Assembly (NCBI GenBank): GCA_026985515.1
Contig: JALSQH010000198.1
Coordinates: 1-18,096 of the forward strand
Source: a bacterium
GTDB taxonomy: Bacteria > JALSQH01
Direction: 5' to 3'
Length of the DNA stretch: 18,096 nucleotides
This document shows, one piece after another, positions 600 to 18,096 of the stretch (its first letter is position 1; each line of letters opens with the position of its first letter). The notes below the pieces were generated by a model. The model worked only from the letters and a program-made list of their open reading frames with translations. It did no database searches and had not been told where the DNA came from. The position numbers and the translations under genes were made by a program.

Positions 600-628
600 T
601 TGACAATTCGTGAATGTTGTACTAAACT
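600..628 (+). promoter_or_regulatory. sigma-70-like promoter of the thiolase/DUF35 unit
   Basis: A perfect -35 box TTGACA (600-605) is followed after exactly 17 bases by TAAACT (623-628), which matches TATAAT at four of six positions. It lies 28 bases upstream of the start codon at 656, giving a short leader with a strong ribosome binding site (AAGGGAGG, 642-649). No terminator-like hairpin with a T tract is seen between the ABC gene and this promoter, so some read-through from upstream is possible. Confidence 0.7.
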
Positions 629-655: not shown

Positions 656-1996
656 ATGCGTCCAGTTTATGTGGTGGCAGGTGGGGTAAGCAAATTTGCA
701 AAGGCACGCCCCGATAAGACATTTCAGGCACTTGTTAAGGAAGCGTACGATTATATTCTGCAGGATCTGTGTATTGAGCATCCCAAAATGGTGGAGTTGA
801 TTGATGGAGTTGTGGGTTCATACTTTTCTGATCACTTTGAGTATCAGTTGATGGCTGCAATTATGGTGCAGGATTACCTTGGCCTTGTACCCAAGCCGGG
901 TCACAGGGTGGAGGGAGGTGGTGCGACGGGGGGGATATGCTTTCAGGAGGCGTGGAAGGCAGTGGCCTCTGGTTATATGGATGTAGTTCTTGCCTATGGC
1001 TTTGAAGTGATGTCAAAGGTTAACACCTGGAAGGGAAACGAGTTTATTGCTCTTGCTTCAGATACCACTTTTGATTATCCCGTGGGAGGATTCTATTCAG
1101 GCTACTATGCAATGATGGTTGTGAGACACATGAAGGAGTTTGGTACAACTCCGGAGCAAATGGCAATGGTCTCTGTTAAAAATCACAAGAATGCGATGTA
1201 CAATCCCTTTTCTCAGGCTCCTATGGATATTACCATTGAAGATGTGAGAAAGGCGCCAATGGTTGCCTGGCCCCTTACCAGACTTGATATCTGTACCATG
1301 AGCGATGGTGCTGCAGCAATAATTCTGGCAAGTGAAGAGGGTCTCAAGAAGATCGAGGATGCTGCAGGTAGAACTCTACCAAAGGTTAAAGTGACGGGAA
1401 TAGGAAGGGGAACAGATGCGATGAGAATGGCTGACAGACCACATGGAGATGTTCCTCTTTTACCACATGAGAAGCCTGAAGATTATGTGGGCGACAAATT
1501 TCTTGGGGGTAAGCTGAAGTATCCTGGTATCCATTCCTTCAGGGCGGGGAGAATGGCTTCAATTCAGGCATACAAAATGGCAGGCATAACGAATCCCCTT
1601 GAAGAACTTGATTTTATTGAACTGCATGATGCCTATACCTCATCAGAAATCCAGACCTATGAGGATATGGGACTGTGCCGATATGGAGAAGGGGGTAAAT
1701 TTGTTGAGGAGGGTTATCCTTTTATGCCAAATGTGGATTACAGAATTGACAAGCCCCTTCCCCACAAGGGGAAGATCCCTGTTAATCCTTCAGGTGGTTT
1801 GATTGCAGCTGGTCACCCCGTAGGGGCAACCGGTTTAATGCAGGCTGTTTTTGCTCTCTGGCAGTTGCAGGGGACCATAGGTAAACATTTTGGGGATGAA
1901 ACTCTGCAGATCAAAAATGCAAAGAGAGGCGCAATTCACAGTCATGCAGGGACTGGAACTTATGTAACTGTCAGTATCCTTGAAAGGGAGGAGTAA
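656..1996 (+). CDS. thiolase-fold (SCPx/archaeal-type) protein without the nucleophilic cysteine
   Basis: This 446-residue protein belongs to the thiolase superfamily, in the SCPx/archaeal branch that works with DUF35 proteins. Family landmarks are VEGGGATGG (85-93, normally VxxxCASGG), SDGAAAIILAS (216-226), ELHDAYTSSE (322-331, normally xVHDCF or HDAF) and NPSGGLIAAGHPVGATG (377-393). The nucleophilic Cys that carries the acyl group is replaced by Gly89, read directly from codon GGT at 920-922. The Cys of the HDCF motif is Ala326, followed by Tyr327. The C-terminal CxG motif is also absent (HSHAGTG, 428-434). Ordinary Claisen-type thiolase chemistry is therefore unlikely. In steroid degradation the DUF35-bound Ltp2 proteins have this fold without the cysteines and act as retro-aldolases, so a C-C lyase on a 3-hydroxyacyl-CoA-like substrate is a possible role (inference). 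The stop is two bases before the DUF35 gene, so the two are probably translationally coupled. It will usually be labelled acetyl-CoA acetyltransferase, and that label should not be trusted. Confidence 0.88.
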   Translation: MRPVYVVAGGVSKFAKARPDKTFQALVKEAYDYILQDLCIEHPKMVELIDGVVGSYFSDHFEYQLMAAIMVQDYLGLVPKPGHRVEGGGATGGICFQEAWKAVASGYMDVVLAYGFEVMSKVNTWKGNEFIALASDTTFDYPVGGFYSGYYAMMVVRHMKEFGTTPEQMAMVSVKNHKNAMYNPFSQAPMDITIEDVRKAPMVAWPLTRLDICTMSDGAAAIILASEEGLKKIEDAAGRTLPKVKVTGIGRGTDAMRMADRPHGDVPLLPHEKPEDYVGDKFLGGKLKYPGIHSFRAGRMASIQAYKMAGITNPLEELDFIELHDAYTSSEIQTYEDMGLCRYGEGGKFVEEGYPFMPNVDYRIDKPLPHKGKIPVNPSGGLIAAGHPVGATGLMQAVFALWQLQGTIGKHFGDETLQIKNAKRGAIHSHAGTGTYVTVSILEREE

Positions 1997-1998
1997 GG

Positions 1999-2535
1999 AT
2001 GAGTGAAAAAGTAAAATTACCTGAACTTGAAGAGGGAACAGAGGTTTTTAATGTTCCATTTCCCAAGGATAAGGATCTCTCTGTACTGAAAAAGATGACC
2101 CCCATAATTGTCAAAAGGCAGTATCTCATAAATTACATTTACAGTTATGGTCAGGATTCCCCATTTTTTGCTGCTCTTGCTAATGGGAGATTGATTGGAA
2201 CGAGGTGCCCAAAGTGTGGCTACACATATGCCACTCCCAAGGGTCATTGCATGTACTGTGGAGTTGAAACTGAATGGGTGGAGTTACCGGAGACGGGTAG
2301 AGTTCACACATTTACGGTGTGTCACTTTGGCAGTGAGGAGTTTCTTAAAGAAACGCCTTTCATCCTTGCCCTGATTGAATTTGATGGGGTGGATACCCTT
2401 TTCCTTACCAGACTGGTGGGGGTGGATGTGAACAATCCCACACTTGACTGGATAGGAATGGAGGTTAAACCAAGATTCAGAAGAAATTCGCAATTTAAAC
2501 CAACTGATGTTTACTTTGTTCCTGTGGATAAGTAA
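1999..2535 (+). CDS. DUF35 zinc-ribbon / OB-fold protein, partner of the thiolase-fold protein
   Basis: The protein has 178 residues. Residues 1-55 form an extended N-terminal part, followed by a helix and the zinc ribbon with Cys70-x2-Cys73 and Cys84-x2-Cys87 (RCPKCG, HCMYCG), then an OB-fold at about 97-176 (GRVHTFTVCHFG, LALIEFDG, GMEVKPRF). Such proteins bind acyl-CoA and bridge or complete the active site of thiolase-superfamily partners: HMG-CoA synthase/thiolase in archaea, BbsA with BbsB in anaerobic toluene degradation, ChsH2 with Ltp2 in steroid degradation. The N-terminal extension makes it longer than the usual 130-140 residues. ATG at 1999 follows the thiolase-fold stop by two bases, with a purine-rich AAGGGAGGAG ribosome binding site inside the end of the upstream gene. 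Its 3' end overlaps rimO, which reads in the opposite direction, by 25 bases. Confidence 0.9.
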   Translation: MSEKVKLPELEEGTEVFNVPFPKDKDLSVLKKMTPIIVKRQYLINYIYSYGQDSPFFAALANGRLIGTRCPKCGYTYATPKGHCMYCGVETEWVELPETGRVHTFTVCHFGSEEFLKETPFILALIEFDGVDTLFLTRLVGVDVNNPTLDWIGMEVKPRFRRNSQFKPTDVYFVPVDK

Positions 2536-4728: not shown

Positions 4729-5862
4729 TTACTTTTTTATGAATTTCCTGACATTTGTTGCAACCCAGTTGTTTATCTCTGCAGGAATTTCCCTTAAAGG
4801 AAGAACTTTATCCACGGCGCCTCGCCTGATTGCTTCCCGCGGCATTCCAAAAACAACAGCCGTTTCTTCTGATTCCGCAATTGTATATCCATTATTGACT
4901 TTGATTTCCAGCAATCCTTCCACACCATCGTCACCCATTCCAGTTAACAGAATGCCCATTGTTCTGCTTCCCATCACGCTGGCAACTGAAAAAAATAACT
5001 TGTTTATTGAGGGAACATATCTGTCACTTTCGGTGGTTTTCTTAAGTTCAATTATAACTCTTTTCCCTTTTCGTGCAATTACCATATTTTTCGAACTTGG
5101 AGATATATAGGCAGTTCCTCCTCTGACAACTTCGCCATGTTCCCCCTTTTTCACGATGTATGATGATACTCTATCAAGTCGCTCTGCAAAAGGTTCAATG
5201 AAGTTATCAGGCATGTGCTGTCCTATTAAAATTGCAACATTCTCATTTAGCTTCAGAGAGCTCATAATCTGGTACAGGGCTGCTGGGCCCCCTGTAGAGG
5301 CTCCTATTGCCACTGTGAGAAGATTGTCAATATCTTCTTCGGCAATAAGGGTTTTTTCGGGTGGAAGAAAAAGGGATTCATAAGAGTAAAAATTGTTACG
5401 ATGTTTCCAGAAATCGTTAAATCTTTTTCTGGCCCCGGAGGGATTGAAGGATGTAGCAAGAACTATTTTGTCGTTTAGCTCTTTAACAATTTTTTCCAGT
5501 TCGGGAATTCCGCCATTCATCGGTTTGGGGATGAAATCGAGAGCTCCGAGCTCCATAGCTTTTATGATATTGTAGTAGTTGCTTTTGGCACTGAGCACTA
5601 TCACTGGTATCGGTTTTCTGTCAAGCAGAAGCCTCAGGAAAGTAAAACCGTCCATTTTGGGCATTTCAAGGTCAAGTATGATGACATCTGGATTGTACTT
5701 TATAACTTTCTTGAGTGCATCTTCCCCATCAACTGCAGTTACTATCTGTCCAATGTTTGGTTGTTTTGATAGAAGTTCACTCAATGTTGTTCTCACATAT
5801 GCAGAGTCATCAACAATGAGAACCGCAGGGTTATTTTTCTGGTTTCTGGTAGACAATGTCAT
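4729..5862 (-). CDS. cheB: chemotaxis response regulator protein-glutamate methylesterase/deamidase CheB
   Basis: CheB removes methyl groups from, or deamidates, receptor glutamates after phosphorylation by CheA. The 377 residues contain an intact receiver domain (acidic pair in LIVDDSAY 15-22, phosphoacceptor Asp64 in ILDLEMPKMDG, switch Ser in VLSA, Lys113 in IPKP), a linker of about 50 residues (130-180), and the methylesterase domain with the catalytic triad visible as Ser189 (AIGASTGGP), His216 (GQHMP) and Asp312 (GMGDDG). The C-terminal NNGYTIAESEETAVVFGMP is also classic. No key residue is missing. ATG at 5862 lies 32 bases inside the 3' end of cheR, and the ribosome binding site is weak, so translation is probably coupled to cheR. 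No other Met lies close to the receiver start. Confidence 0.97.
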   Translation of the reverse strand: MTLSTRNQKNNPAVLIVDDSAYVRTTLSELLSKQPNIGQIVTAVDGEDALKKVIKYNPDVIILDLEMPKMDGFTFLRLLLDRKPIPVIVLSAKSNYYNIIKAMELGALDFIPKPMNGGIPELEKIVKELNDKIVLATSFNPSGARKRFNDFWKHRNNFYSYESLFLPPEKTLIAEEDIDNLLTVAIGASTGGPAALYQIMSSLKLNENVAILIGQHMPDNFIEPFAERLDRVSSYIVKKGEHGEVVRGGTAYISPSSKNMVIARKGKRVIIELKKTTESDRYVPSINKLFFSVASVMGSRTMGILLTGMGDDGVEGLLEIKVNNGYTIAESEETAVVFGMPREAIRRGAVDKVLPLREIPAEINNWVATNVRKFIKK

Positions 5863-6706
5863 TTTTCAGGTTGACCAGCTTAAATTTTGTTGTAATGTTG
5901 ATAAGACTTTCTGAATGTCCCAGCAGTAAAAAGCCACCGGGTAAAAGTCTATCATAAAGGTTGTCAACAAGTTTTTTCCTCGATTCCATATCAAAGTATA
6001 TCAAAACATTCCTGCAGAATACAACATCAAAAAAGGGGAGAAGTCTTATTTTTTCTGAGTCAAGAAGATTGAGATGGGAAAATGTAACCAGTTCCTTAAC
6101 CTCTTCCTTAATTTTGTATTTCCCATCCTCCATTCTGACAAAGTATTTTTCGATGTATTTTCTTGGAGTAGCTCTGAATGAACTGGTTGAATATATACCT
6201 TCTCTTGCCTTTGCAAGCATTTCATAGTTGATGTCGTTGGCAAAAATATTGAACACTATTTTCCCGTTGTTGCATAGATAGTGGTACTTGCACTTTTCAA
6301 GGATAAGCATTGCAATGGTATAGGGTTCTTCACCAGATGAGCATCCCGCGCTCCAGATATTTATCATGTTCAGGGATGATTTTTTCTTTTTATCCACTAT
6401 CAGTGGGAGAATTTCTTCGGAAAAGGCATCCAGCTGGAATTTTTCTCTGAAGAAATATGTTTCGTTGGTGGTTACAATGTTTATAAGGGTATCCAGTTCT
6501 TCCTTTTTTCTTCTGTTGTACTTGAGGAAAATCACATACTCTCTGAATGAATTGAACCCCAGATCAAATAATCTTTTCTGAAGCTTGTACTCCAGAATCT
6601 TCCTGTCGTTGTCAGTGAGCCATATGCCTGACTTTTTATTTATGATTTCCCTGAGTACTTCAAATTCGTAGTCTGGTAATGTAATATGATGATAATTAAC
6701 GGGCAT
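5831..6706 (-). CDS. cheR: chemotaxis protein-glutamate O-methyltransferase CheR
   Basis: CheR methylates receptor glutamates with S-adenosylmethionine and works against CheB. The 291 residues have the N-terminal helical domain (about 10-75), then NETYFFRE (81-88), the SAM-binding loop WSAGCSSGEEPY (118-129), ANDIN (157-161), VFCRNVLIYFD (229-239) and GHSES (263-267). Length and motifs match stand-alone CheR without TPR repeats. Neither receptor in this operon ends in an NWETF-like pentapeptide, so tether-independent docking is expected. ATG at 6706 overlaps the stop of the HEAT gene by 11 bases, and cheB starts inside its 3' end, so the three genes are tightly coupled. Confidence 0.97.
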   Translation of the reverse strand: MPVNYHHITLPDYEFEVLREIINKKSGIWLTDNDRKILEYKLQKRLFDLGFNSFREYVIFLKYNRRKKEELDTLINIVTTNETYFFREKFQLDAFSEEILPLIVDKKKKSSLNMINIWSAGCSSGEEPYTIAMLILEKCKYHYLCNNGKIVFNIFANDINYEMLAKAREGIYSTSSFRATPRKYIEKYFVRMEDGKYKIKEEVKELVTFSHLNLLDSEKIRLLPFFDVVFCRNVLIYFDMESRKKLVDNLYDRLLPGGFLLLGHSESLINITTKFKLVNLKNDIVYQKPEK

Positions 6707-8708
6707 TAGCTAGACCCACTAACGCATTTTTTATTTCACTGTCTGTTTCTATTTTGATCATCTTTTTTATCAGCTCTGCTGAATCTGGATCAAGGGGAAT
6801 TCTGTAGAGAGAATTGATTATTTTCTTTCTGCTTTCAGGAGGTAGCTCTTTGTATGCTTCGAGGATAATGTCAAATACCTTCCTTTTAATGGCAATTTCC
6901 ATAGCAGTGTGTATTACCTCTGGATCAGGATGTTTCAAAGCGTTTTTCAGAAGATTTTTGTACTTTTCTGACCAGTGCCTGTCTAAAATTTCAAGGGCAA
7001 CCACCACCACGGCTCCAATTGGATCATCCATTTTATCCACCAGATATTCCACCACCTCGTCACCAAGGATTTCTTCAAGAGCCTTCAGGGTTTCGAGCCT
7101 GATCCAGAAGTTGGGATCCTCTTTCAGTATCTTGAAGTAATCCAGTACCTCTCTGCCTCCTATGGCAGCAAGGGCTTTTATCGCTTCTATCCTGACCTTT
7201 TCATCCTCATCAAAACAGAGAGGTTGAACCTGAAAGAGGGAATCCTTCACTTTTAACTGTCTCAGAGTTCTCAATGCCCACTTCCTTATCTCAGGGTCAT
7301 TGTCCTTCAGAAGCATTGTGACATATTTCCAGTACTGGGTGGACTCAGTGTCACCAATGAGCCACAGCATATTTTTTTTACAGGTTTTCCCGGTGCATGA
7401 GTCAAGATATTTCTCAATAACCTGGGAGGCTACAGAGGGATAATCCCTGACAAGCCTTTTGAGGGCGTTTATTACTGCTTCTACTGTTTCAACATTTTCT
7501 CCCTTTGTGAGGTATCTCACCAGAGGTTCAATTGATTTTTCTGTCCCGACCCTTGCAAGAGCCTCTGCGACTGATGCCACCAATTTTTCAGAGCCACCCT
7601 GGATCAGATCAAGAAGGAGATCTTCAGATTTCTGGTTGCCCATTTTTGAAATAATCTTGCACATGAAGGATTTCGTGTCATCATCAAAGTCAAAGCATAT
7701 ATCGTGAATGATTCCAACTACTTCTTCCCCATAGAATTCCATTATTTCCAGGAAGAATTCTCTGTTTTCTTCTATGCTCCTTAGAATCTGAGGTATTGCA
7801 GATGTATCCCTCCTCGCTGCAAGTACCAGTGCTGCACCACTTTTCGTTTCAATGTTACTGCTGTTCAGAGCTTTATAGACTAAATCCTTCTTTATTTCAT
7901 TTTTCCTGATTGCATCCAGAAGTTCCTTCCTGTATTGAGGATTGTGGATGTAGAATTTGTATATAGCTCTGAAAGCTGCTTCCCTGATCCCTTTCTGAGG
8001 AATGTTGAGATTTTCCACAATGGGCAGGATGATTTTTGGATCAGATATATAGCCTGCAAGTTCCAGGAAGGCTTTTCTCAGAAGGGGTTCGTCAATGTAT
8101 GGTAGAAAATTCCTGTACTCGAGTTGAATTTTGGGGTAGCGGGAAAGAATATCTCTCGATGCTGAGAGGACACAGAAGACAATATTTATGTTGTCCTTTC
8201 TCTTTTCAAGAATATCTATGAGTATTTTTATAGTTTCTGCATTTCCTATTTTTCCAAGAACTTCTATTACAGCTGAAAGTAGATTCTCATCCTCAGTATC
8301 AAGCAATCTGATCAGGTAAGGTGCAACGGATTCATCTCCAATTTCGCCCAGTATGTCAACATAGAATTTTTTTATTTCATCGTTCTCTCTGGGAAGAGCC
8401 TCAATTATTTTGTATGTCGCTTTGCTACCAAGTCTTACAAGTCCCTCTATTGCAGAATTTCTCAGGTTTGCATTTTCTTCTTCATGAACCAGCTGGAGCA
8501 GGAGTTCTATGACGGCGGAAAGGTCATAATATCTCAGAAGTCCCTCTATGGCGGTTTTTCTTATTCTCCAGCGGCTATCACCCATTGCCTCTTTGAAAAC
8601 TTCAAGAGCCTCCGGATCATGCAATTCTGCAATGGATTCGAGAAATTCTATTTTTTCATTTTCATCCTCTATCACATTGTACTTCTCAATCAACCTCTTT
8701 TCCGTCAT
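6696..8708 (-). CDS. HEAT-repeat scaffold protein of the chemosensory operon
   Basis: The 670-residue protein is made almost wholly of paired helices of about 30 residues in the HEAT/PBS-lyase-like pattern. Examples are DPEALEVFKEAMGDSRWRIR, SVAPYLIRLLDTEDENLLSA, KSIEPLVRYLTKGENVETVE, DNDPEIRKWALRTLRQL and HPDPEVIHTAMEIAIKRK. No signal peptide, membrane segment or catalytic motif is visible, so a soluble protein-binding solenoid is likely. HEAT-repeat genes occur in other non-flagellar che clusters, for example the phycobilin-lyase-like Cpc7 of the Myxococcus Che7 system. This one probably docks a component of the array or its output (inference). It starts 24 bases after the zinc-ribbon gene and overlaps cheR by 11 bases. 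Confidence 0.9.
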   Translation of the reverse strand: MTEKRLIEKYNVIEDENEKIEFLESIAELHDPEALEVFKEAMGDSRWRIRKTAIEGLLRYYDLSAVIELLLQLVHEEENANLRNSAIEGLVRLGSKATYKIIEALPRENDEIKKFYVDILGEIGDESVAPYLIRLLDTEDENLLSAVIEVLGKIGNAETIKILIDILEKRKDNINIVFCVLSASRDILSRYPKIQLEYRNFLPYIDEPLLRKAFLELAGYISDPKIILPIVENLNIPQKGIREAAFRAIYKFYIHNPQYRKELLDAIRKNEIKKDLVYKALNSSNIETKSGAALVLAARRDTSAIPQILRSIEENREFFLEIMEFYGEEVVGIIHDICFDFDDDTKSFMCKIISKMGNQKSEDLLLDLIQGGSEKLVASVAEALARVGTEKSIEPLVRYLTKGENVETVEAVINALKRLVRDYPSVASQVIEKYLDSCTGKTCKKNMLWLIGDTESTQYWKYVTMLLKDNDPEIRKWALRTLRQLKVKDSLFQVQPLCFDEDEKVRIEAIKALAAIGGREVLDYFKILKEDPNFWIRLETLKALEEILGDEVVEYLVDKMDDPIGAVVVVALEILDRHWSEKYKNLLKNALKHPDPEVIHTAMEIAIKRKVFDIILEAYKELPPESRKKIINSLYRIPLDPDSAELIKKMIKIETDSEIKNALVGLANAR

Positions 8709-8732
8709 TTTTTAACCCGCCTTGCTCCAGAA

Positions 8733-9638
8733 TCAGAGTCCAAATTCTTTTCTCTTTGCCTCCAGCATTTTTTCAATCTCTTCTCCAAGAAAGTCTTTCA
8801 ATTTCCTGATATGCTCTGGAATTGTTTTTTCATAGTGCTCTCTTCCTGCCTTGAGATCCTTGGCTATTCTTTCATACACATCACCATGAATCAGGCCTTC
8901 TCTGATGGCATCTTCATTGTAAAGAGCTATGTCAGCTGCTATAAGCCGTGCCTTTCGCTGAGCCTTCTTAACCCATTCCTGATCTTCTGGTGAAAGAGAA
9001 GAGAGATCTATTTCCTTTTTCTCTGCTGGTGCTGGTTTTTCTTCAGGGACAGTTTCAGATGGTGCTGATACTTTGCCTTCCTGCGAAGGTGCAATCTGGT
9101 TTATAATACCTGGAAGTTCTTCCTCAATGGTATGTCTGTCGATGTAGTGATCAGCACCGTAGAGGTATTCGGGTGATCTTTTGTATGCATCCTTGTTGTA
9201 AATGGAACCTATAAGGATTATTTTTATGTTTTTCTGAGGGTCATTTCTTCTTACGAGTTCAGATACTTCAAAACCATAAAGTCTCGGTAGGTCAACATCA
9301 ATGATTGCAATGGAGGGATTTTGATTGGTGATCCTGTAAAGAGCCTCTATGCCATCACGGATTATCTGAGGAGAAATCCCGGCGGATTTAAGAATCTTTT
9401 CAATGACGCCTGCCAGTTCAGAGTTTGCTGTTGCAATGATGGCGTTTGCCTTCCCTGAAGGGGGAGGTGTTTCCTTTTTGCCTTCAGAAGGAGGAGTTGC
9501 TCCTTCCCAGTCCACAACATTTTCATATACTGGAAATATTTCTCCACAATGCTTGCATTTGATCTTTGGTGATTTACCGGAGAATTTTTTTGGGTCAAGT
9601 CTGTACTTGGCACCACACTTTGGACATTTGACAATCAT
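8733..9638 (-). CDS. zinc-ribbon / degenerate receiver protein with a conserved-looking helical C-terminus
   Basis: The 301-residue protein has three parts. Residues 1-36 are an MJ0042-type zinc ribbon (Cys5-x2-Cys8 and Cys28-x2-Cys31, CPKCGAKYRLDPKKF). A Pro/Ser/Glu-rich linker follows. Residues 66-182 have the receiver fold with the likely acceptor Asp114 (AIIDVDLPRLYGFE) and Ser145, but the metal-binding acidic pair is replaced (IIATANSE, Thr70-Ala71) and the conserved Lys is Arg168 (HYIDRHT). Normal aspartyl phosphorylation is therefore doubtful. After a second linker rich in Pro and Glu (185-210), residues 215-301 are a helical domain (KARLIAADIALYNEDAIREG). I recognise this style from proteins of many bacteria but know no function for it. 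Its ATG overlaps the stop of the second receptor as ATGA, so the two are coupled. Confidence 0.85.
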   Translation of the reverse strand: MIVKCPKCGAKYRLDPKKFSGKSPKIKCKHCGEIFPVYENVVDWEGATPPSEGKKETPPPSGKANAIIATANSELAGVIEKILKSAGISPQIIRDGIEALYRITNQNPSIAIIDVDLPRLYGFEVSELVRRNDPQKNIKIILIGSIYNKDAYKRSPEYLYGADHYIDRHTIEEELPGIINQIAPSQEGKVSAPSETVPEEKPAPAEKKEIDLSSLSPEDQEWVKKAQRKARLIAADIALYNEDAIREGLIHGDVYERIAKDLKAGREHYEKTIPEHIRKLKDFLGEEIEKMLEAKRKEFGL

Positions 9639-11662
9639 TTTTCACTACCTCTCTTTTGTTTAGTGTTTCTTTCTACCAGATCCATTATTGCTAATAGATT
9701 TTGCTTCATTCTCTTCAATCTCCTGGAAACTTCTTCGGAGGTTAATGAAATGGTATCGAGATACTTCTCCATCTCATTTTTATTATAATATAAACTCCTG
9801 TTCCCTTCACCTATTTCCATGAGGTTTTCAATGATATGTTCCAGTCGTGTTTCATATCTTGCCCATTCTTCTTTGAAGAGATTTATGTTTTCCCGAAGCT
9901 TTGTGATGTCAGGTGTCAGTTCAGTTTCTTTTTCGTAGATAGACGCAATGAATTTTTCAATCTGGGAAATCCTTGTATTGAGCTCATCTATCCATTCAAG
10001 ATTGTCTGATGCAACAGGTTCAATAACAGAGTTTATCTTATTGAGCTGTGTGACAAGCTGGTCAAGAAGGGTATCTGTGTTTCTAATTTCTTCCGAAATT
10101 TCTTTTAAATTCGTGGTATTTTCGTTGAGTGATTTTTTTATTATGTCAACAAACTTTGTAATCATTCCAAGTTCCTTCATGAGTTCTTCCACAAGTCCGC
10201 TGTTGGCGTTGCTGAATTCTCTGCTTTCCCTTATTTTATTTTCCATCTCCTGTATAGCGGAGAAAACTACTTCAGAAAGCCCCTTTACTTCTTCTGCAAT
10301 GATTTCAAAGCTACGGCCTTCGATACTGGTCACCTGTGCAGATATAATTGATGCATTGAGGGAAAGAAGGTTTGTCTGATCGGTAAACTCCTCAATGTCT
10401 CCCATTTTTAGTTCTATTTCGTTAAGGGTGTTTCGGATAAAACTTCTGTTGTTTTCCATGCTGTTAATTATTTCCCGAATCCTTCCAATGGTTGACATGG
10501 TTTCATTTATTGAGTTTTCTATAACTTCTTCTTTTTCTCTTATGGCATTTACTAATGGGAGAATGCCCTGGCTTCTGTTTTTCACATTTTCAGTTATTTC
10601 TTCCAGTTTTCTTATCTCATCTTCCGCTCTTACAATGTTTTTTCTGAGCTGAACAAGGTTTTCATTCCACTTTTCTTTCTCCTTTTCTATTTGCAGATGC
10701 TGAGAAATTTCTTCACTTATGAGTTTGACGAAGACTTCCCATTTTTTTACAAACTCAGTAAGAAGGGTTGAAATATTTTTATTGAAATCCTCCCTGAAAG
10801 TCATTTTTCTGAGTTCATCAAGGAAATCTTTCATCACCTGGATCTGAAAGGTTATTCTTTCCAGATCGTTGAAGAATTTGTCCGGTTCAACCTCTGCGTT
10901 TTTAATGTTGTTGAGGGAGTTTTCCATTTTATCAACCAGATCTATTGACCTCTGAAGAGTAGAGGATAATTCTGAGAGATTCTCCTTCCAGAGAAGGGTC
11001 AGTTTTGATTCCAGATGGAAGATATCTGCAATTTCATCTTCTCGCATGCTATCGGGTTCAGGAAAGGAAAATTTTTCTCCTTTAAAAATGCTTATCAAAC
11101 CTTCTTTGAATCGAAGTAAAGGTGAGGAGATTAGAAAATGTGTCACAAGAGAAATAGAAGCAATTATAACCAGACCAATAAGAAACATTATGAGACTCAA
11201 CCTTATCCCATATGAGAACATACTCTGGTCAATCTTTGTCAGGTCTATCAATCCTTCAATATGGTAAGGTCCTTTATCTTTGATGATCAGTTTCATTATT
11301 CTGTTTCTCACGAGGAAAGTTTTACCTGGTGTTAATTCTTCAGCGGAGTATTTCATGTGAAGCTCATTAAATAACTGAGGAAAAGTTGAGGTTAATCTCT
11401 TTCCTCTTCTATCATAGATTGCAAAATTATATGTCGCCAGTGAATTTTCCATTGTAAATATTCGGGGAGGAAATTTACCGCTCTGGAGCTGTTTTGGAAT
11501 TGTGTTTATTACCGCTTCAGCTCCTGATGTTACACTTTCAATGACACTCTTCCTGTGATTGATGAGGAGGAATATTGTGAGGAAAAAGATTATGGTGTAA
11601 ATAATTATTCCATTTATCAGCAAAAGTTTTCTGTTTATTTTAAGTGACCAGAATCTTGTCAT
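9635..11662 (-). CDS. divergent methyl-accepting-like chemoreceptor (second receptor)
   Basis: This 675-residue protein has TM1 (about 13-34), a periplasmic part of about 118 residues that resembles a small Cache-like sensor, TM2 (about 153-177), a HAMP-like stretch (about 178-230) and a very long coiled-coil hairpin. The tip is recognisable but altered: TDQTNLLSLNASIISAQ (427-443), then VTSIEGRSFEIIAEEVKG. Compared with the usual LNAAIEAARAGEQGRGF it has one extra residue in the turn, Ile440 for Glu and Gln443 for Arg. No adaptation consensus (Glu-Glu pair flanked by small residues) is visible in the arms. I chose ATG at 11662, one base after the stop of the preceding receptor (TGAGATG), with AGGAG at 11667-11671. 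A TTG six codons upstream keeps the frame open but has no matching site. Confidence 0.88.
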   Translation of the reverse strand: MTRFWSLKINRKLLLINGIIIYTIIFFLTIFLLINHRKSVIESVTSGAEAVINTIPKQLQSGKFPPRIFTMENSLATYNFAIYDRRGKRLTSTFPQLFNELHMKYSAEELTPGKTFLVRNRIMKLIIKDKGPYHIEGLIDLTKIDQSMFSYGIRLSLIMFLIGLVIIASISLVTHFLISSPLLRFKEGLISIFKGEKFSFPEPDSMREDEIADIFHLESKLTLLWKENLSELSSTLQRSIDLVDKMENSLNNIKNAEVEPDKFFNDLERITFQIQVMKDFLDELRKMTFREDFNKNISTLLTEFVKKWEVFVKLISEEISQHLQIEKEKEKWNENLVQLRKNIVRAEDEIRKLEEITENVKNRSQGILPLVNAIREKEEVIENSINETMSTIGRIREIINSMENNRSFIRNTLNEIELKMGDIEEFTDQTNLLSLNASIISAQVTSIEGRSFEIIAEEVKGLSEVVFSAIQEMENKIRESREFSNANSGLVEELMKELGMITKFVDIIKKSLNENTTNLKEISEEIRNTDTLLDQLVTQLNKINSVIEPVASDNLEWIDELNTRISQIEKFIASIYEKETELTPDITKLRENINLFKEEWARYETRLEHIIENLMEIGEGNRSLYYNKNEMEKYLDTISLTSEEVSRRLKRMKQNLLAIMDLVERNTKQKRGSEK

Positions 11663-11663
11663 C

Positions 11664-13814
11664 TCACTCCTCTTCCTCAATTCGGAAGTACTTGACTATT
11701 TCATATAAACCTTCAATTTGCTCGTTGAGATTTTTAACCACCGACTCAAGGGAAGAGGCATTTAGCTGATTCTGCCTTGTTATCTCCTGTATTCTGTTCA
11801 TTGCGTCAAGTATATGTTCAACACCCTTTTGCTGTTCCTGAACACTCCTTGAAATAAAGTGCACCATTTGATTGATATTTTTCACTGCTTCCATAATCTG
11901 CCTGCTTCCCTGTGTTTGCTCCTTTGTGGAGATCTTTACCTTTCGTGCTATCTGCCTCATATCTTCAATGGCATGGAGAATTCTCTCTGATCCCGCTTCC
12001 TGATCCTTTGTGGCAATGGAGATTTTCCTTGCCATCTCAACTATTCTGTTTATGGATTCTGTCACTTGATGAGACCCATTTGCCTGATCAGTTGTTGATC
12101 TGCTTATTTCCTTCATCCTTTCGGTGGATAGCATGGCACTGTTTAAAATTTCTTCCAGCGCCTTTCCGGCTTCTTCAGATAGAGTTACACTTTTGTTTAC
12201 TTTCTCGTCACTTTTTTCCAGAGCTTCCTTTGCATAGGTACTTTCTTCCCTCAATGAATTGATGAGATCACCGACTTCTTTTGTTGAAAGAGATGTTCTT
12301 TCAACCAGCTCTTTTATTTCGTCGGCAATAACGGCAAAACTCTTTCCCTCTTCCCCTGCCTGTGCAGCGATTATTGCTGCGTTGAGTGCGAGAAGATTTG
12401 TTTGCTCTGCAATGTCATCTATTACGAGTAGGATGGATCCTATCTCCTCTGTTTTGGCATTCAATCTTTCTATGGCTTTTGCAACTTCTGAAAATGTCTG
12501 TTTTATTTCCCTTATACTGTCTCTGGTGTAGTCAACAGCCTCTTTTCCTCTGGTGGCATTTTCTGTAACCTTTTCTGATAACTGGAGGGTTTCATTTGTA
12601 TTCCTCTCAATCTCGGAGATGGATTTGTCTATCTGATTCATTGAGGCTGCGGTGTTTTCTGATGCTTTGAAGAGTTCTTCAATATGAGAAGCAACTTCCT
12701 TTATTGCAGCTGTCATTTGAGAAATCGAGGAACTCGTTTCTTCAATTGCAGAGGATAGGCTTTCCATGTTTCTGTCCACTTCTGCAATGGTGGCAGTTAA
12801 TTCTGTTATGGAAGAAGAGCTTTCCTCAGAGGAGGAGGAAAGAACATCGATCTTTTCTGTAATCTCCCTCATTGATGCATTTAATTCTTCGATGGAGGAA
12901 CCAGTCTCCTCAACTGCCTTGAACTGAGCTGTTGCACCGGAGTAAACCTCTTCTGCTGTATCCTGTACCTCGTCAGAAAGGGATGTTAATTTCTTTGTTA
13001 TGATCTGTATCTTTTTGATTACATTTTTAATGTCTGTGAGCATCTGATTGAATACTCCTGCAAGGAGACCGATTTCATCTTCTCTCTTAACTTCTGCCCG
13101 CTGAGTCAGATCTCCCGTGGAAACCCTTTTGGCAACAGCAGTTAATTCTGCAAGAGGGGAGATGGCATACTCTATATAGAGATAGAGAATCGTAATGGCA
13201 AGGAGCAGGGTAATAATTAGTATGATTAACCCAACTCTTTCAGTTTCTTTTATTTCCATGCTTATTCCAAAAGTGCTCATCCCCAGCCGCACAAATCCCT
13301 GAACACTTTCCTTTGGTGTAGTCACACTGTAGTTTTCTGTGGGAGCGGTGGTCTGGCCCCCAAAAAGAAACTCATCATTTATGGCTGTTTCAACCGGAAT
13401 AATGATTGGTGCCACAAAATCATAGAATTTTTCCTTCCCTATTTTGAAGGAGGTGATTTTGACCCCTGCTGATGGTGGAGACACATAGGGTATTTCTTCT
13501 TTGTATCTTTCATCCTTGTATTCTTCTGCAAGGACTTCTCCTTTTTCAGTCACTATCATCCCATAGACGACATCCGGGTTATCCATTACCCCTTCAAGGA
13601 GTTGTTTGAGGACAATCTTATTCCTTGCCTGAAAACCCACTTTGGAGTTTCTAGCGAGATCATATACGAGAGTTTTTCCTCTTTTTACAAGCTCCTGCTG
13701 GAGGATCTGCCTTGTTTGATGATAAAAATATACACTGAATGCAAGTCCAAAGATCACGAAGAGCAGGCTAATAAAAAATATAAGCCTTGTTTTCAGCGTC
13801 TTTCTATTCTTCAT
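11664..13814 (-). CDS. methyl-accepting chemotaxis protein with extra-long cytoplasmic hairpin
   Basis: The receptor has 716 residues: TM1 (about 11-31), a periplasmic domain of about 160 residues (32-193, Cache/PDC-like, with NPDVVYGMIVTEKGEVLA and GFVRLGMS), TM2 (194-214), HAMP (about 215-270, ISPLAELTAVAKRVSTGDLT) and a hairpin with its tip at IAEQTNLLALNAAIIAAQAG (468-487). Each arm is about 220 residues, far longer than the roughly 150 of E. coli Tsr. Likely methylation sites on the first arm are Glu302-303, 330-331 and 358-359, with matching Glu/Asp-Gln pairs at 576, 604, 632 and 660 on the other arm. CheR and CheB in the same operon support adaptation. ATG at 13814 is chosen because GGAG (13821-13824) precedes it and the membrane segment follows at once. 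The frame stays open for 88 more codons upstream, but those lie in the cheW gene and show no receptor character. It overlaps that cheW by 11 bases. Confidence 0.95.
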   Translation of the reverse strand: MKNRKTLKTRLIFFISLLFVIFGLAFSVYFYHQTRQILQQELVKRGKTLVYDLARNSKVGFQARNKIVLKQLLEGVMDNPDVVYGMIVTEKGEVLAEEYKDERYKEEIPYVSPPSAGVKITSFKIGKEKFYDFVAPIIIPVETAINDEFLFGGQTTAPTENYSVTTPKESVQGFVRLGMSTFGISMEIKETERVGLIILIITLLLAITILYLYIEYAISPLAELTAVAKRVSTGDLTQRAEVKREDEIGLLAGVFNQMLTDIKNVIKKIQIITKKLTSLSDEVQDTAEEVYSGATAQFKAVEETGSSIEELNASMREITEKIDVLSSSSEESSSSITELTATIAEVDRNMESLSSAIEETSSSISQMTAAIKEVASHIEELFKASENTAASMNQIDKSISEIERNTNETLQLSEKVTENATRGKEAVDYTRDSIREIKQTFSEVAKAIERLNAKTEEIGSILLVIDDIAEQTNLLALNAAIIAAQAGEEGKSFAVIADEIKELVERTSLSTKEVGDLINSLREESTYAKEALEKSDEKVNKSVTLSEEAGKALEEILNSAMLSTERMKEISRSTTDQANGSHQVTESINRIVEMARKISIATKDQEAGSERILHAIEDMRQIARKVKISTKEQTQGSRQIMEAVKNINQMVHFISRSVQEQQKGVEHILDAMNRIQEITRQNQLNASSLESVVKNLNEQIEGLYEIVKYFRIEEEE
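11764..12101 (-). repeat. four tandem 28-residue repeats, descending arm of the receptor
   Basis: Residues 572-683 of the first receptor fall into four units of exactly 28 residues that begin at 572, 600, 628 and 656. They share a core of the type ST-x-(D/E)Q-xx-GS-xx-I (TTDQANGS, ATKDQEAGS, STKEQTQGS, SVQEQQKGV). The aligned acid-Gln pairs are at 576, 604, 632 and 660. The bounds given are the approximate codon span. Confidence 0.75.
12579..12914 (-). repeat. four tandem 28-residue repeats, ascending arm of the receptor
   Basis: Residues 301-412 fall into four 28-residue units that start at 301, 329, 357 and 385. Shared cores are VEETGSSIEEL, SEESSSSITEL, IEETSSSISQM and SENTAASMNQI. The first three hold Glu-Glu pairs that fit the receptor methylation consensus. 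The block lies opposite the repeat block of the other arm. Confidence 0.75.
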
Positions 13815-14409
13815 TGCTGTCTCCACTCTTTTTCGATTTTTTCTTTTTATTCTTTCTTGAAGATTTTCTGGTTGACTTTGAATATTGCTTTTCCTGTTTA
13901 GAATCTTCGCTGTCTGGTTTATTGTTATCCATTTGAGTGTCTGATAGCATTTCATGAAATTTACTGAAATCCACCTGCTCCTTCTGGGAGAGAAGCTTTT
14001 CAAAATCAATGATAAAAATGATTTCTTCCCCTTTCTCTGCGACTCCAGATAAAAAATCAGCTTTGAAGGATTCTCCAAGCTGAGGGGGTGGTTTCAAGTT
14101 TTCGGCGGGTATCCGTAAAACTTCAATAACTTCATCAACTAAGAGACCCGCGATTCTTTTCAGAATCGTGGCAACAATTATTCTTGTTTTCTTGTCTGGT
14201 TCTCTTGGTTCCATGCCGAATTTCTTCCTCAGATCCACAATGGGAATTATTACTCCTCTCAGATTTATCACTCCCTCAATGAATGGTGGAGTCCCGGGTA
14301 TTTTGCTGATTTTATGGTAACGGGTTATCTCCTTCACTTTCATAATGTCTATTCCAAATTCCAGATCTCCCAATTTAAAAATGGCAAATTGCAGCTCCTT
14401 TTCATCCAT
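13804..14409 (-). CDS. cheW: CheW-like adaptor with a lysine-rich C-terminal tail
   Basis: CheW couples receptors to CheA. Residues 6-142 form the CheW fold (LQFAIFKLGDLEFGIDIMKV, IEGVINLRGVIIPIVDLRKKFG, RIAGLLVDEVIEVLRIP, FLSGVAEKGEEIIFIIDFEKLL), including the conserved NLRG loop used for receptor contact. Residues 160-201 are a low-complexity hydrophilic tail with a strongly basic block at about 175-195 (KSSRKNKKKKSKKSG). A short CheW normally ends near residue 150, so the tail is extra. ATG at 14409 overlaps the stop of the other cheW by 8 bases, with AAGGAG upstream. The tail could bind nucleic acid, acidic lipids or an acidic protein such as the tail of the neighbouring CheW (inference). 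Confidence 0.95.
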   Translation of the reverse strand: MDEKELQFAIFKLGDLEFGIDIMKVKEITRYHKISKIPGTPPFIEGVINLRGVIIPIVDLRKKFGMEPREPDKKTRIIVATILKRIAGLLVDEVIEVLRIPAENLKPPPQLGESFKADFLSGVAEKGEEIIFIIDFEKLLSQKEQVDFSKFHEMLSDTQMDNNKPDSEDSKQEKQYSKSTRKSSRKNKKKKSKKSGDSNEE

Positions 14410-15082
14410 TTGCCTTCTCCTTCTTCAGTGAATACTCAATCTTTGTTATTTCATTTATATTGAGAATTCTGAGAAAGACCCCTTCATATCTTGCAATCCC
14501 GGAAACAAAAACCGATTCGTTTTCCTTCTGATTTACTGGTGGGGGTTCTATTTTATCTGCAGGTATTCTGAATACCTGGGTTACTTCATCCACCAGCAGG
14601 CCAATCTCTTCCTCACTGTTGTTGACAATAATGACTCTGGTTTTTCTGTCCATGTTTTTCTCTGGAAAACCAAGCTTTTTTCTCAACGAGATAAGGGTTA
14701 TAACTCTTCCTCGCAGATATATCACCCCTAAGACGTAATCTGGAGTAAGAGGAACATCGGTGATCTGAGGTACCTTGATTATTTCTGTTACATTTTCGAT
14801 GGAGAGACCATATTCATCCTCGTTTATCTTGATTCCAAGAAATTCGTTAAGATTGTGATCTATCTGGATTCTTTCCCTGAGAGCCCCCTGTCCCAGAAGG
14901 GTCTCTGCTGCGAGCTCAATAAGGGATTTTTCTTCCTGTTCTTCCTGTTTCTCAGCTTTTTCTACCTGTGGTTCTTCTGCAGGAGTCTCTACCCCTGTTT
15001 CAGGGATTTCCTTTTCTTTTCCCTCTTCCTTCTTTTCTTCCTTTTTCTTTTTCGCTTTCTTTCTTATTTCGGCAATATCCAC
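14402..15082 (-). CDS. cheW: CheW-like adaptor with a charged N-terminal extension
   Basis: The 226-residue protein starts with a charged tail (residues 1-55). Lys and Glu are mixed at first (KKAKKKKEEKKEEGKEKE) and Glu dominates later (ETPAEEPQVEKAEKQEEQEE). The CheW fold follows at about 75-220 (FLGIKINEDEYGLSIENVTE, VLGVIYLRGRVITLISLRKKLG, EIGLLVDEVTQVFRIPADK, VFVSGIARYEGVFLRILNI). The start is GTG at 15082. No ATG lies in frame before the CheW domain, and GGGAGGG (15092-15098) stands nine bases upstream, inside the end of the ATPase gene. Two CheW copies in tandem suggest that the adaptors are not interchangeable, for example one for each receptor or one in a ring with CheA P5 (inference). 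Confidence 0.94.
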   Translation of the reverse strand: MDIAEIRKKAKKKKEEKKEEGKEKEIPETGVETPAEEPQVEKAEKQEEQEEKSLIELAAETLLGQGALRERIQIDHNLNEFLGIKINEDEYGLSIENVTEIIKVPQITDVPLTPDYVLGVIYLRGRVITLISLRKKLGFPEKNMDRKTRVIIVNNSEEEIGLLVDEVTQVFRIPADKIEPPPVNQKENESVFVSGIARYEGVFLRILNINEITKIEYSLKKEKANG

Positions 15083-15088
15083 CTGTTA

Positions 15089-15925
15089 CTACCCTCCCAG
15101 TGAGTTGGTTTTCCATGCTCTACCAAGTCTGAGATCCTCAACCACATCCAGAATTGTGCTCTCTGTTACGGGATCCTCTTCTTTTCCAAAGCCAGCTAAC
15201 AGGGCATTGGAGGCAATGTTGTTTATCACTCTTGGCAATCCTTCAGAATAGTGATAGATCAATTCAACCGCTTTTTCGGTGAAGAGTGGCTCCTTTCTTC
15301 CAGCTTTTTCCACTCGAAACCTGATGTAATTCTTTGTTTCCTCAAAATCCAGTGGCCCCAGATGGTATCTCATTCCTATTCTCTGCACCAGAGGTTTGTA
15401 GGCCGGATGTTTCAATCTCCTGTTCAATTCTGGCTGAGCAACAAGCATCAGGCAGAGAAGATTTTCATCGTCAAGCTGGAAGTTTGTGAGTAGTCTGATC
15501 TCATCGAAGGTTGATTTTGAAGGTATCAGCTGTGCTTCGTCAATAATTATGACTGGAGTTACCCCGTTCTCGTAAAGTTCATAGAGCTTCTCATAGATAG
15601 CCTCGTTGAGGTCGCTTCTGCTTGAGGGGATTTTATCCACCTCAAGTCCCCTGGCAATTACTTTCAAAAAATGAGATGGAGAAAGTCGTGGATTTAGAAT
15701 AACGATGAATTTATACTTCTTCTCGTCAACACTGTCCATCAATTTTCTGGTGAGAGTCGTTTTGCCTGTTCCTATTTCCCCTGTCAGGAGAAATAGGTCT
15801 TTTTCTTCAAGAGCGTATTCCATTCTTGCCAGAGCTTCCCTGTGCTGTTTCCCCAGGTAGAGAAATTCCGGGTCAGGAGTTTTTGAAAATGGTTTTAATT
15901 TGAGGCCATAAAATTCTCTATACAT
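15089..15925 (-). CDS. ExeA/GspA-like AAA ATPase inside the chemosensory operon
   Basis: The 278-residue ATPase belongs to the ExeA/GspA/MshM family, whose members help assemble type II secretion or pilus machinery at the envelope. It opens with the typical MYREFYGLKLKPFSKTPDP and shows Walker A GEIGTGKTT (49-57), Walker B VIIIDEAQ (125-132), a sensor region VAQPEL (162-167), a likely arginine finger QRIGMR (181-186) and sensor II GLPRVINN (229-236). No peptidoglycan-binding or membrane part follows, unlike full-length ExeA. I chose ATG at 15925, which overlaps the cheA stop by 8 bases (AGAGG at 15935-15939), because the family begins exactly there. An ATG 11 codons upstream is less likely. 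The place between cheA and cheW suggests that it drives localisation or output of the array (inference). Confidence 0.92.
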   Translation of the reverse strand: MYREFYGLKLKPFSKTPDPEFLYLGKQHREALARMEYALEEKDLFLLTGEIGTGKTTLTRKLMDSVDEKKYKFIVILNPRLSPSHFLKVIARGLEVDKIPSSRSDLNEAIYEKLYELYENGVTPVIIIDEAQLIPSKSTFDEIRLLTNFQLDDENLLCLMLVAQPELNRRLKHPAYKPLVQRIGMRYHLGPLDFEETKNYIRFRVEKAGRKEPLFTEKAVELIYHYSEGLPRVINNIASNALLAGFGKEEDPVTESTILDVVEDLRLGRAWKTNSLGG

Positions 15926-17918
15926 ACGCCTCAGCCTCTTCAATAAATGATGCCACATCTATTACCAGAACCACCCTTTGATCCCCGAGATCTGTGGCTC
16001 CCGCAATTGGTTTCAGATATGAAAGAGATTTCCCGAGGGGTTTTATGACAACATCCTGCTGACCTATGATCTGATCCACTAAGATCCCCCATTTTTTTTC
16101 CGCCAGTCCAACCACGATTATGAAATACTCCTGCTGATCTTCAGGACAATCTGTTAAATTGAAAATTTTTCCAGGTCTTATCACTGGAAGTGTTATGTCT
16201 CTCAATTCGATGACCTCTTTCTTTTCAACTGTTTTAATTTCGTCAGGTGTGATGACCACAGTTTCAAGTATGGAGTTCAGAGGAATTGCAAATATTTTAT
16301 GACAGAACTTGATGAGAAGAGCCTGAATTATTGCAAGGGTTATGGGGAGTGTAATAATAAAAGTTGTTCCTTTACCCTCTTCAGTTACAACATTTATCAT
16401 TCCGCTGAGTCTGGTTATGTTGTTTTTGACAACGTCCATTCCGACACCGCGTCCCGAAATTTCTGATACTTCCTCCTTCGTGGAAAAACCTGGTGTAAAA
16501 ATGAGGTTTATGATTTCCTCTCTGCTCAGCTCCTCATCCGGAGAGATGATGCCCTTTTCAATAGCTTTTTTCCTCACTTTTTCAACATCTATTCCCCTCC
16601 CATCATCTGAAATTTCTATGACAACATGGTTACCCTTTTGATATGCATTTATAATGATGGTCCCCTTCTCGGGTTTACCAGCAAGGAGTCTCTCCTCTTT
16701 TGACTCGATCCCGTGATCTATGGCGTTCCTGATAATGTGAATCAGAGGATCTGAGAGTTCTTCCACAATGAGTTTGTCAAGCTCTGTATCTGCTCCATAA
16801 ATCTCCAGATTAATCTCTTTCCCTGAATCCCTTGCCAGTTTGTTAACGATTCTGGCAAGGTTGTTGAAGATCATGCTGAGTGGGACCATTCTTATTTCGG
16901 TTATTCCATTCTGAAGTTCCCTTAACTTCCTCTCCAGGAGTTTTACATTTTTCTGAAGTTCAAGTACGTGGGGGGCCAGTTCTTTGTAATCTTTGAAAAC
17001 CTCGATACTCCTCTCAATAGCTGATTTTGAGAGACCCAGTTCCCCAACTAAACTCATTATGTAATCTAATTTTTCTATGTTGACGCGTACATAGTCACTT
17101 TTTCTGGTCAGGGAGGAAGCAATGTCATTCTTCTTCAGGGCTTTTTTTTTAGGTGGTTCTCTTTTCAGCTTCCCCAGCAATTCTATCTGAGCCTTTTCAT
17201 CTCCAATATGCGATTTTATTTTCTCCTCACTGGCGTCGGTTGCGACCACCATGTCGAATCTGAGTTCTCCCTCTGATGCAGGTTCTGAGCTAGGTAGGGT
17301 GGTTATAACTTCACCTATCTCTTTAAGGGAAGATGTAAGTTTTTCAAGTCTTACGTCAAATTCTTCAAGTGGAAACGAAGCTTTGACTCTGTATATGCCT
17401 TTTCCTTCTTCAAGATTTGCATTTATTCTGTGTTCTTCATATTCTGTAAGAACTGCCAGTATCTCCGGATCAATACCTGCTTCCTTTGCCAGGTTTTCAC
17501 TGGTGGTTTTCTTGTTTCTTTTAATGGCATCATCAATTTCTGAAATAAAGCTCTCCACTTCTGCTCTGTCAATTTCCTCTTTTCTGCTCAGTTTCTCTAA
17601 GATTTCGCTTAACTTCTGCCCCCCCTGAAAGAGTACATCAAAGACATCACTGTTATACTCTATCTTTCCAAGTCTCAAATTATCCAGCATGTTTTCAAGA
17701 GCGTGGCTTAGTTTTGAAAGATCCTCCAGTCCGAACATGCCAGCTGCACCTTTGAGAGAATGGGCAGCCCGGAAAATTTCGTTGAGTATATCCTGATCAA
17801 GGACCCCGGATGAGGAAAAACTTTCATCCATATCGAGAAGGCCTTCCTGGTAACGGCTTATCATTTCCCCCGCTTCAGCCACAAATTCCTTGAAGGCCTT
17901 TTCGGAGAATTCAGGCAT
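15918..17918 (-). CDS. cheA: chemotaxis histidine kinase CheA
   Basis: CheA phosphorylates the CheY-like and CheB receivers in response to the receptors. The 666 residues show P1/HPt (1-130) with phospho-His53 in RAAHSLKGAAGMFG, a P2-like receiver-binding domain (about 172-243), P3 dimerisation helices (276-340, YVRVNIEKLDYIMSLVGELG), the P4 ATPase with N box HIIRNAIDHGIES (394-406), G1 DDGRGID (438-444), G2 SGRGVGMD (488-495) and GKGTTF (515-520), and the P5 CheW-like domain (about 528-660). All catalytic landmarks are present. There is one HPt domain and no fused receiver. ATG at 17918 is preferred because GGAG (17926-17929) lies seven bases upstream. A GTG two codons earlier is too close to that site. 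It overlaps the stop of the CheY-like gene by 8 bases. Confidence 0.97.
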   Translation of the reverse strand: MPEFSEKAFKEFVAEAGEMISRYQEGLLDMDESFSSSGVLDQDILNEIFRAAHSLKGAAGMFGLEDLSKLSHALENMLDNLRLGKIEYNSDVFDVLFQGGQKLSEILEKLSRKEEIDRAEVESFISEIDDAIKRNKKTTSENLAKEAGIDPEILAVLTEYEEHRINANLEEGKGIYRVKASFPLEEFDVRLEKLTSSLKEIGEVITTLPSSEPASEGELRFDMVVATDASEEKIKSHIGDEKAQIELLGKLKREPPKKKALKKNDIASSLTRKSDYVRVNIEKLDYIMSLVGELGLSKSAIERSIEVFKDYKELAPHVLELQKNVKLLERKLRELQNGITEIRMVPLSMIFNNLARIVNKLARDSGKEINLEIYGADTELDKLIVEELSDPLIHIIRNAIDHGIESKEERLLAGKPEKGTIIINAYQKGNHVVIEISDDGRGIDVEKVRKKAIEKGIISPDEELSREEIINLIFTPGFSTKEEVSEISGRGVGMDVVKNNITRLSGMINVVTEEGKGTTFIITLPITLAIIQALLIKFCHKIFAIPLNSILETVVITPDEIKTVEKKEVIELRDITLPVIRPGKIFNLTDCPEDQQEYFIIVVGLAEKKWGILVDQIIGQQDVVIKPLGKSLSYLKPIAGATDLGDQRVVLVIDVASFIEEAEAYV

Positions 17919-18096
17919 TACCACTCTCCACTAAAAATTTTCTAACAACTTCCTGCAGATCTTCCGGGTCAAAGGGTTTTACTATGTATGAGTCGGCACC
18001 CAGAGCGAGTCCCTTTTCTCTGTCCCTCTTGCTACCCTCAGTGGAAATTATAATCAGAGGAATATGCCTGTATAGCTGGTTGCCTTTAATGAATTT
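17911..18096 (-). CDS. CheY-like response regulator receiver (C-terminal part, start outside window)
   Basis: The frame is open from the right edge to TGA at 17913-17911, giving 61 residues. Visible are strand 4 with the switch residue (IPLIIISTEGSKRDREKG, Ser-Thr), helix 4, and strand 5 with the conserved Lys-Pro (GADSYIVKPFDPEDLQEVVR). The protein ends shortly after helix 5, so it is either a single-domain CheY-like regulator or a larger protein that ends in a receiver. The acidic pocket and acceptor Asp lie outside the window. It is next to cheA with overlapping stop and start and is a natural substrate of that kinase (inference). Confidence 0.9.
   Translation of the reverse strand, partial: KFIKGNQLYRHIPLIIISTEGSKRDREKGLALGADSYIVKPFDPEDLQEVVRKFLVESGNA

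Follow-up and report, generated by a model that had tools for sequence, protein, structure and literature searches.

Several described proteins resemble the thiolase-fold protein analyzed here (hereafter TL). The nearest solved folds are those of the archaeal acetoacetyl-CoA thiolase/DUF35/HMG-CoA synthase assembly (PDB 6ESQ and 6ET9) and of 7YVY, all of which show about 33% identity to TL and have in common with it the His residues of the HD and GHP motifs. The 6ESQ structure includes a DUF35 partner, which TL also has, but unlike TL these enzymes retain the nucleophilic Cys and are placed outside the TL clade. Benzoylsuccinyl-CoA thiolase BbsAB (7PXP) is another thiolase/DUF35 pair and contains HDA instead of HDC, as TL does; this enzyme is 31% identical to TL in the structural alignment and, in contrast to TL, has kept the nucleophilic Cys (QSACSAG). 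The ST0096 protein of Sulfolobus tokodaii (4YZO) also lacks the nucleophilic Cys (SGSGG) and is found elsewhere in the tree than TL. Finally, the steroid side-chain aldolases Ltp2-ChsH2 (6OK1) and Sal-Shy (9MYR) combine, like TL, a thiolase fold, a Gly in the place of the nucleophilic Cys and a DUF35 partner (PMC12329534). Catalysis by these aldolases depends on Tyr294 and Tyr344 in the case of Ltp2 and on Tyr302 and Cys304 in the case of Sal (PMC12329534).

TL is encoded in a stretch of bacterial DNA of 18,096 nucleotides (contig JALSQH010000198.1 of assembly GCA_026985515.1), the whole of which is referred to below as the window. The gene is followed by that of a DUF35 protein (Table 1).

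Table 1. Features of the window discussed in the text; positions are counted from the first nucleotide of the window.
Feature	Positions	Strand	Basis or remark
Weak sigma-70-like site 5' of TL, 10/12 matches	600..628	+	number of such sites in the region does not exceed chance
TL, Cys-less thiolase-fold subunit	656..1996	+	ATG start, 446 aa
Gly89 codon, motif E-G-G-G-A-T-G-G, at the position of the nucleophilic Cys	920..922	+	Gly in 49/49; Cys in canonical relatives
His324-Asp325-Ala326-Tyr327 codons (HDAY; HDCF in thiolases, YDHF in Ltp2, YDCY in Sal)	1625..1636	+	alignment; PMC12329534
Gly386-His387-Pro388 codons, GHP loop; His387 matches Ltp2 Tyr344 / Sal Gln352 by spacing	1811..1819	+	alignment
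His428-Ser429-His430-Ala431-Gly432 codons, C-terminal motif; His430 falls in the area of the CxG Cys of thiolases	1937..1951	+	49/49
DUF35 / ChsH2-like partner, 178 aa, zinc ribbon and OB fold	1999..2535	+	starts 2 bases past the TL stop codon
Codons of the zinc-ribbon cysteines C70, C73, C84 and C87	2206..2259	+	sequence; motif compared among loci
Chemosensory cluster: CheB-like, CheR-like, HEAT-repeat, two methyl-accepting-type and CheW-like proteins, CheA-like kinase	4729..17924	-	sequence reading

TL scores above the cut-offs of all three Pfam models Thiolase_N, Thiolase_C and Thiolase_C_1, and the features that are typically required of a thiolase are only partly present. The fold and the HD and GHP histidines are there. 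The alignment with homologues shows that the column of Gly89 is occupied by Cys in canonical members (xCASGG or CATG), and that the column of Ala326 corresponds to the Cys of the HDC motif in canonical homologues. In the alignment of 49 TL members, G89, H324, D325, A326, H387, H428, S429, H430, A431 and G432 are each invariant (49/49), and Y327 is kept in 48 sequences and replaced by Phe in one. The nucleophilic N-terminal Cys is accordingly absent from every member (Gly89), as is the second, acid/base Cys of HDCF or CxG (Ala326 and His430). Since the motif residues are invariant across the 49 members, the residue pattern of TL is, as judged from the alignment, neither chance nor decay. All residue statements of the first-pass annotation of the window (Gly89, Ala326-Tyr327, HAG, GHP and HD) proved correct when compared with the reading frame and the homologue alignment, and its view that TL is probably not a thiolase is well supported by the loss of both the nucleophilic and the acid/base Cys in 49/49 sequences.

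An ordinary thiolase that employs another Cys appears hardly credible given the distribution of the remaining cysteines. Cys213 and Cys341 are invariant among the members and Cys385, which adjoins the GHP His, is nearly so (48/49); however, the TL of the window has Ala in place of Cys385, neither Cys213 nor Cys341 aligns with the nucleophile loop, and the acid/base Cys is gone as well. Cys95, given in the first-pass annotation as an example of another Cys that might be the nucleophile, is a Cys in only 35/49 members and is ruled out as the nucleophile.

The AlphaFold2 model of TL shows a complete thiolase fold and has a mean pLDDT of 83.8 and a pTM of 0.90, with lower confidence at residues 121-145 and in two short loops. 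Among the structural matches of this model, the Pyrococcus thiolase 7YVY ranks first (Z 50.5), followed by the methanogen acetoacetyl-CoA thiolase 6ESQ/6ET9 (Z 48), ST0096 (Z 47.8) and BbsB (Z 46.8); Ltp2 (Z 41.3) and Sal (Z 40.5) are more distant. With Z 48-50, archaeal acetoacetyl-CoA thiolases resemble the predicted fold of TL more closely than Ltp2 or Sal do. The catalytic Tyr of the YDHF motif of Ltp2 and the YDCY motif of Sal aligns with His324 of TL (49/49), and Cys304 of Sal aligns with Ala326. In those members that have no loop insertion, 50 residues separate the His of the HD motif from that of the GHP loop, a spacing identical to that between Tyr294 and Tyr344 in Ltp2, and therefore Tyr344 corresponds to His387. 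Because the catalytic Tyr of Ltp2 and Sal is absent from TL, the known retro-aldol mechanism is not transferable. The analogy to Ltp2/ChsH2 that had been drawn in the first-pass annotation thus stands with respect to the absence of the nucleophile and the presence of a DUF35 partner and fails with respect to the catalytic residues, in the place of which TL has His324, His387 and Ala326. The contexts differ as well, steroids in the case of Ltp2 and Sal and short-chain acyl-CoA metabolism in the case of TL. By its residues, TL does not appear to be an aldolase of the Ltp2/Sal type; it may work like these enzymes and is not classed here as a member of their group. As far as the sequences tell, TL is a thiolase/DUF35 variant with an active-site set unlike that of thiolases, Ltp2 or Sal.

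Screening bacterial and archaeal genomes, one for each species, yielded 499 confirmed relatives of TL, a number that takes in more distant proteins and is not a count of the exact TL family. The best 80 of these 499 relatives share about 71-76% identity with the query over their best segment and belong to NC10, Chloroflexota, Deltaproteobacteria, Myxococcales, Melainabacteria, Schekmanbacteria, Acidobacteria and other groups. In the maximum-likelihood tree of 42 sequences, TL forms one clade with support of 100/98, and this clade, along with the invariant active-site residues, bears out the earlier claim that the gene is not decayed. Together with a sister group (L009-L011, 43-48% identical), which has the same S-H-A-G in the C-terminal motif, and a Cys-less pair (L028 and L021), TL belongs to a larger "GGATG" clade (100/99). 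The Cys-less GGATG clade is separate from every Cys-bearing thiolase sampled in this 42-sequence tree, in which Ltp2 and Sal are not included. Other thiolase-like proteins that lack the nucleophilic Cys (L016, L024 and PDB 4YZO) make up a second set, which the tree places apart from TL.

The best family model for TL is NCBIfam NF004982 (PRK06365), which matches over the full length with 661.3 bits, below the curated cut-off of 695, and is titled "thiolase domain-containing protein" with no function attached. The expectation that automatic annotation would miss this protein is therefore only partly justified: a near model exists, so that the family is not wholly overlooked, and the name it confers is that of a thiolase domain-containing protein and nothing else. 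The TL family is real, widely conserved and mis-named. The name "thiolase" is contradicted by the residues of TL in many genomes from many phyla, and pathway reconstructions that include it are probably wrong at the TL step.

The DUF35 protein of the window passes both ChsH2 models of Pfam (PF01796, 52.7 bits with a cut-off of 27.1; PF12172, 37.2 bits with a cut-off of 23.2), and a DUF35 reading frame is located directly 3' of TL in at least 77 of the 80 related loci. By analogy with the solved thiolase/DUF35 complexes, this protein is likely to bind TL in the same manner. In roughly half of the loci, all four zinc-ribbon Cys are gone from the DUF35 partner and the CxxC...CxxC arrangement is replaced by a conserved pattern like DPETGYTYATPRGHDMYTG. 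Loci of this kind include L036, L038, L044, L046, L050, L052, L057, L066, L079, L108 and other Chloroflexi, as well as L083 and L112. To judge from these sequences, a zinc-free ribbon in a DUF35 protein looks unusual.

The neighbors of TL inside the window are the end of an ABC transporter gene and a RimO-like gene; function could not be deduced from these or from the chemotaxis genes, all of which were uninformative. Among the 80 related loci, 17 contain a gene for the large subunit of a B12-dependent acyl-CoA mutase, always upstream of TL and on the same strand, and in 16 loci the B12-binding small subunit is encoded directly upstream of TL. Almost all of the mutase-bearing loci (16/17) are from NC10, Chloroflexi and Deltaproteobacteria, the remaining one (L091) being acidobacterial. 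At the two specificity positions, we take Tyr/Arg to be the signature of methylmalonyl-CoA mutases and Phe/Gln that of isobutyryl-CoA mutases. The context mutases have Phe/Gln in 14 cases and Tyr/Gln in 3, that is, Gln in 17/17 and Arg in 0/17 at the position of the methylmalonyl-CoA mutase Arg. Methylmalonyl-CoA mutase is thereby ruled out as the linked enzyme, and 2-hydroxyisobutyryl-CoA mutase, for which Asp is presumably the signature, is not supported because the diagnostic position is Ala. The large subunits with Tyr/Gln are those upstream of TL in L037, L049 and L061 (NC10).

Genes for acyl-CoA dehydrogenases are found near 25 of the 80 loci, and glutaconate-type or 3-oxoacid CoA-transferase, FadF-like, ETF, HBDH, thiolase and MeaB genes are recurrent in the vicinity of TL. 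The L096 operon encodes a TIGR00366 transporter, which we assume to be a short-chain fatty acid transporter (AtoE-like), along with subunits A and B of 3-oxoacid CoA-transferase. The minimal context, in Melainabacteria, consists of TL, DUF35, an acyl-CoA dehydrogenase and a fused CoA-transferase; no mutase was detected in the one genome of this group that was checked. TL-bearing genomes with no mutase hit are those of L043 and L086. Taken together, the gene context of TL suggests branched short-chain acyl-CoA catabolism.

The genome to which the window belongs encodes two mutases, one with Tyr/Arg (L114, the methylmalonyl-CoA signature) and one with Phe/Gln (L115, the isobutyryl-CoA signature). 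The latter is part of a cluster that includes an adenosyltransferase, the large and small subunits and MeaB; the contig also encodes an acyl-CoA ligase and a thiolase. The same gene set as in the L115 cluster has been reported for the isobutyrate degrader Syntrophothermus lipocalidus (PMC5017805).

We tentatively propose, with a probability of about 0.45, that TL together with its DUF35 partner acts as a C-C lyase that is not thiolytic and serves to break down branched short-chain acyl-CoAs (valine/leucine-type). The first-pass annotation had suggested a C-C lyase related to Ltp2/ChsH2 that acts in another pathway. This is plausible; the gene context speaks for it and the lack of conservation of the Ltp2/Sal catalytic residues against it. 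In thiolase chemistry, a His and backbone amides stabilize the thioester enolate. By extension, TL deprived of the nucleophile might stabilize an acyl-CoA enolate, with His324 and backbone amides forming the oxyanion hole and His387 and His430 serving as the base and acid. The complex with DUF35 would then make or break a C-C bond beside the CoA thioester with no covalent Cys intermediate, such that a beta-hydroxyacyl-CoA is split or formed directly. Such a lyase would represent a third active-site solution among thiolase/DUF35 lyases, after Ltp2 and Sal, and it could fill a gap in the degradation of branched-chain acids in sediments, groundwater and digesters. Nothing relevant was found in the literature on a lyase of this kind, on a link between DUF35, thiolase and mutase, under the ribbon-OB name or on an enzyme leading from leucine to acetone.

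The retained GHP and HD histidines, the proximity of the fold to acetoacetyl-CoA thiolases and the presence, in some loci, of 3-oxoacid CoA-transferase genes adjacent to TL and DUF35 could also be reconciled with a retro-Claisen hydrolase, in which a beta-ketoacyl-CoA is cut by water instead of CoA and His387 activates the water in the space vacated by the Cys. We consider such an activity improbable, given that it would wastefully compete with a normal Cys thiolase, the gene of which often shares the operon with TL.

Loss of the nucleophile in ketosynthases that keep both active-site His is a known decarboxylase pattern. TL shows the same combination of a lost nucleophile and two retained His, and mutase genes are found nearby, so that a decarboxylase function of TL with substrates of the malonyl-CoA type, such as methylmalonyl- or dimethylmalonyl-CoA, has to be considered; furthermore, the Cys-less TbSLP decarboxylates malonyl-CoA, albeit very slowly (PMC12329534). 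Nevertheless, the related Sal has no malonyl-CoA decarboxylase activity (PMC12329534), the linked mutases are of the Gln type rather than the methylmalonyl-CoA Arg type, and propionyl-CoA-carboxylase/MmdA-type subunits are already encoded in the genomes tested, all of which makes this function quite unlikely.

In four genomes of the deltaproteobacterial type (G021, G059, G060 and G061), the sole short B12 subunit found is encoded directly in front of TL, and the mutase large subunits are located on other contigs. This arrangement would be compatible with TL having no catalytic activity of its own and acting as a scaffold or CoA-binding partner, for instance of the adjoining mutase small subunit. 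The active-site motif residues are, however, invariant in TL whereas pseudoenzymes usually drift at such positions, and we regard a purely structural role as very improbable.

Returning to the proposed C-C lyase, the mutase would convert isobutyryl-CoA to butyryl-CoA for ordinary beta-oxidation. The L079 operon is complete in this respect, containing genes for every step from isobutyrate to acetyl-CoA, and therefore a need for TL in that operon is a guess. The substrate of TL might be a beta-hydroxy-beta-methylacyl-CoA, such as 3-hydroxyisovaleryl-CoA. The Melainabacteria gene set would fit a pathway in which an acid is activated, dehydrogenated, hydrated and then cleaved, isovalerate being the simplest such acid; cleavage would follow hydration because a tertiary beta-hydroxyl is not oxidizable. 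In its most specific form, the proposal is that TL catalyzes the retro-aldol cleavage of 3-hydroxyisovaleryl-CoA to acetone and acetyl-CoA, in a biotin-free leucine/isovalerate route that replaces methylcrotonyl-CoA carboxylase (MCC) and HMG-CoA lyase in hundreds of mostly uncultured bacteria. This version is speculative and rather doubtful.

If TL bypasses MCC, its carriers should tend to be without MCC, and this expectation was set down in advance of reading the MCC data. Because Pfam carboxyltransferase counts and NCBIfam alone could not separate PCC from MCC, MCC was scored by a motif search. The sample comprised 150 genomes from a single class, to which L038 (in an Anaerolineae genome) belongs; the Fisher tests given here ignore kinship and missing contigs. 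Every MCC motif match that was examined at the level of its reading frame proved to be an MCC beta subunit. The motifs of TL, the Gln-type mutase and MCC were found in 25, 88 and 31 of the 150 genomes, respectively. The Gln-type mutase is present in 21/25 genomes with TL vs 67/125 without it (p=0.0067), which leaves 4/25 TL carriers with no Gln-type mutase motif. MCC itself also goes with the mutase (28/31 vs 60/119, p=3e-5). Among the mutase-positive Anaerolineae, MCC is found in 2/21 TL carriers vs 26/67 others (p=0.015, with no correction for kinship), and the contrast is weaker over all 150 genomes (p=0.11). The two mutase-positive genomes that combine TL and MCC are unusually large (8.0 and 6.5 Mb). 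Outside Chloroflexi, the MCC motif is present in 4/43 TL genomes, and it is also infrequent in the TL-negative comparison set (6/36). No MCC motif was detected in the genome of the window.

Two further gene associations were observed. A gene for a protein with the metallo-beta-lactamase fold recurs in TL operons (L096:18586-19425, L079:6166-7023, L057, L066, L103 and L108); this protein resembles the YtnP lactonase, with a score of 220 bits that is below the cut-off of 425. In addition, on contig C85 of the window's own genome (L129:570-3241), the gene of a Cys-bearing thiolase adjoins a gene for an HMG-CoA-synthase-like protein of 487 aa, an arrangement similar to that in archaea.
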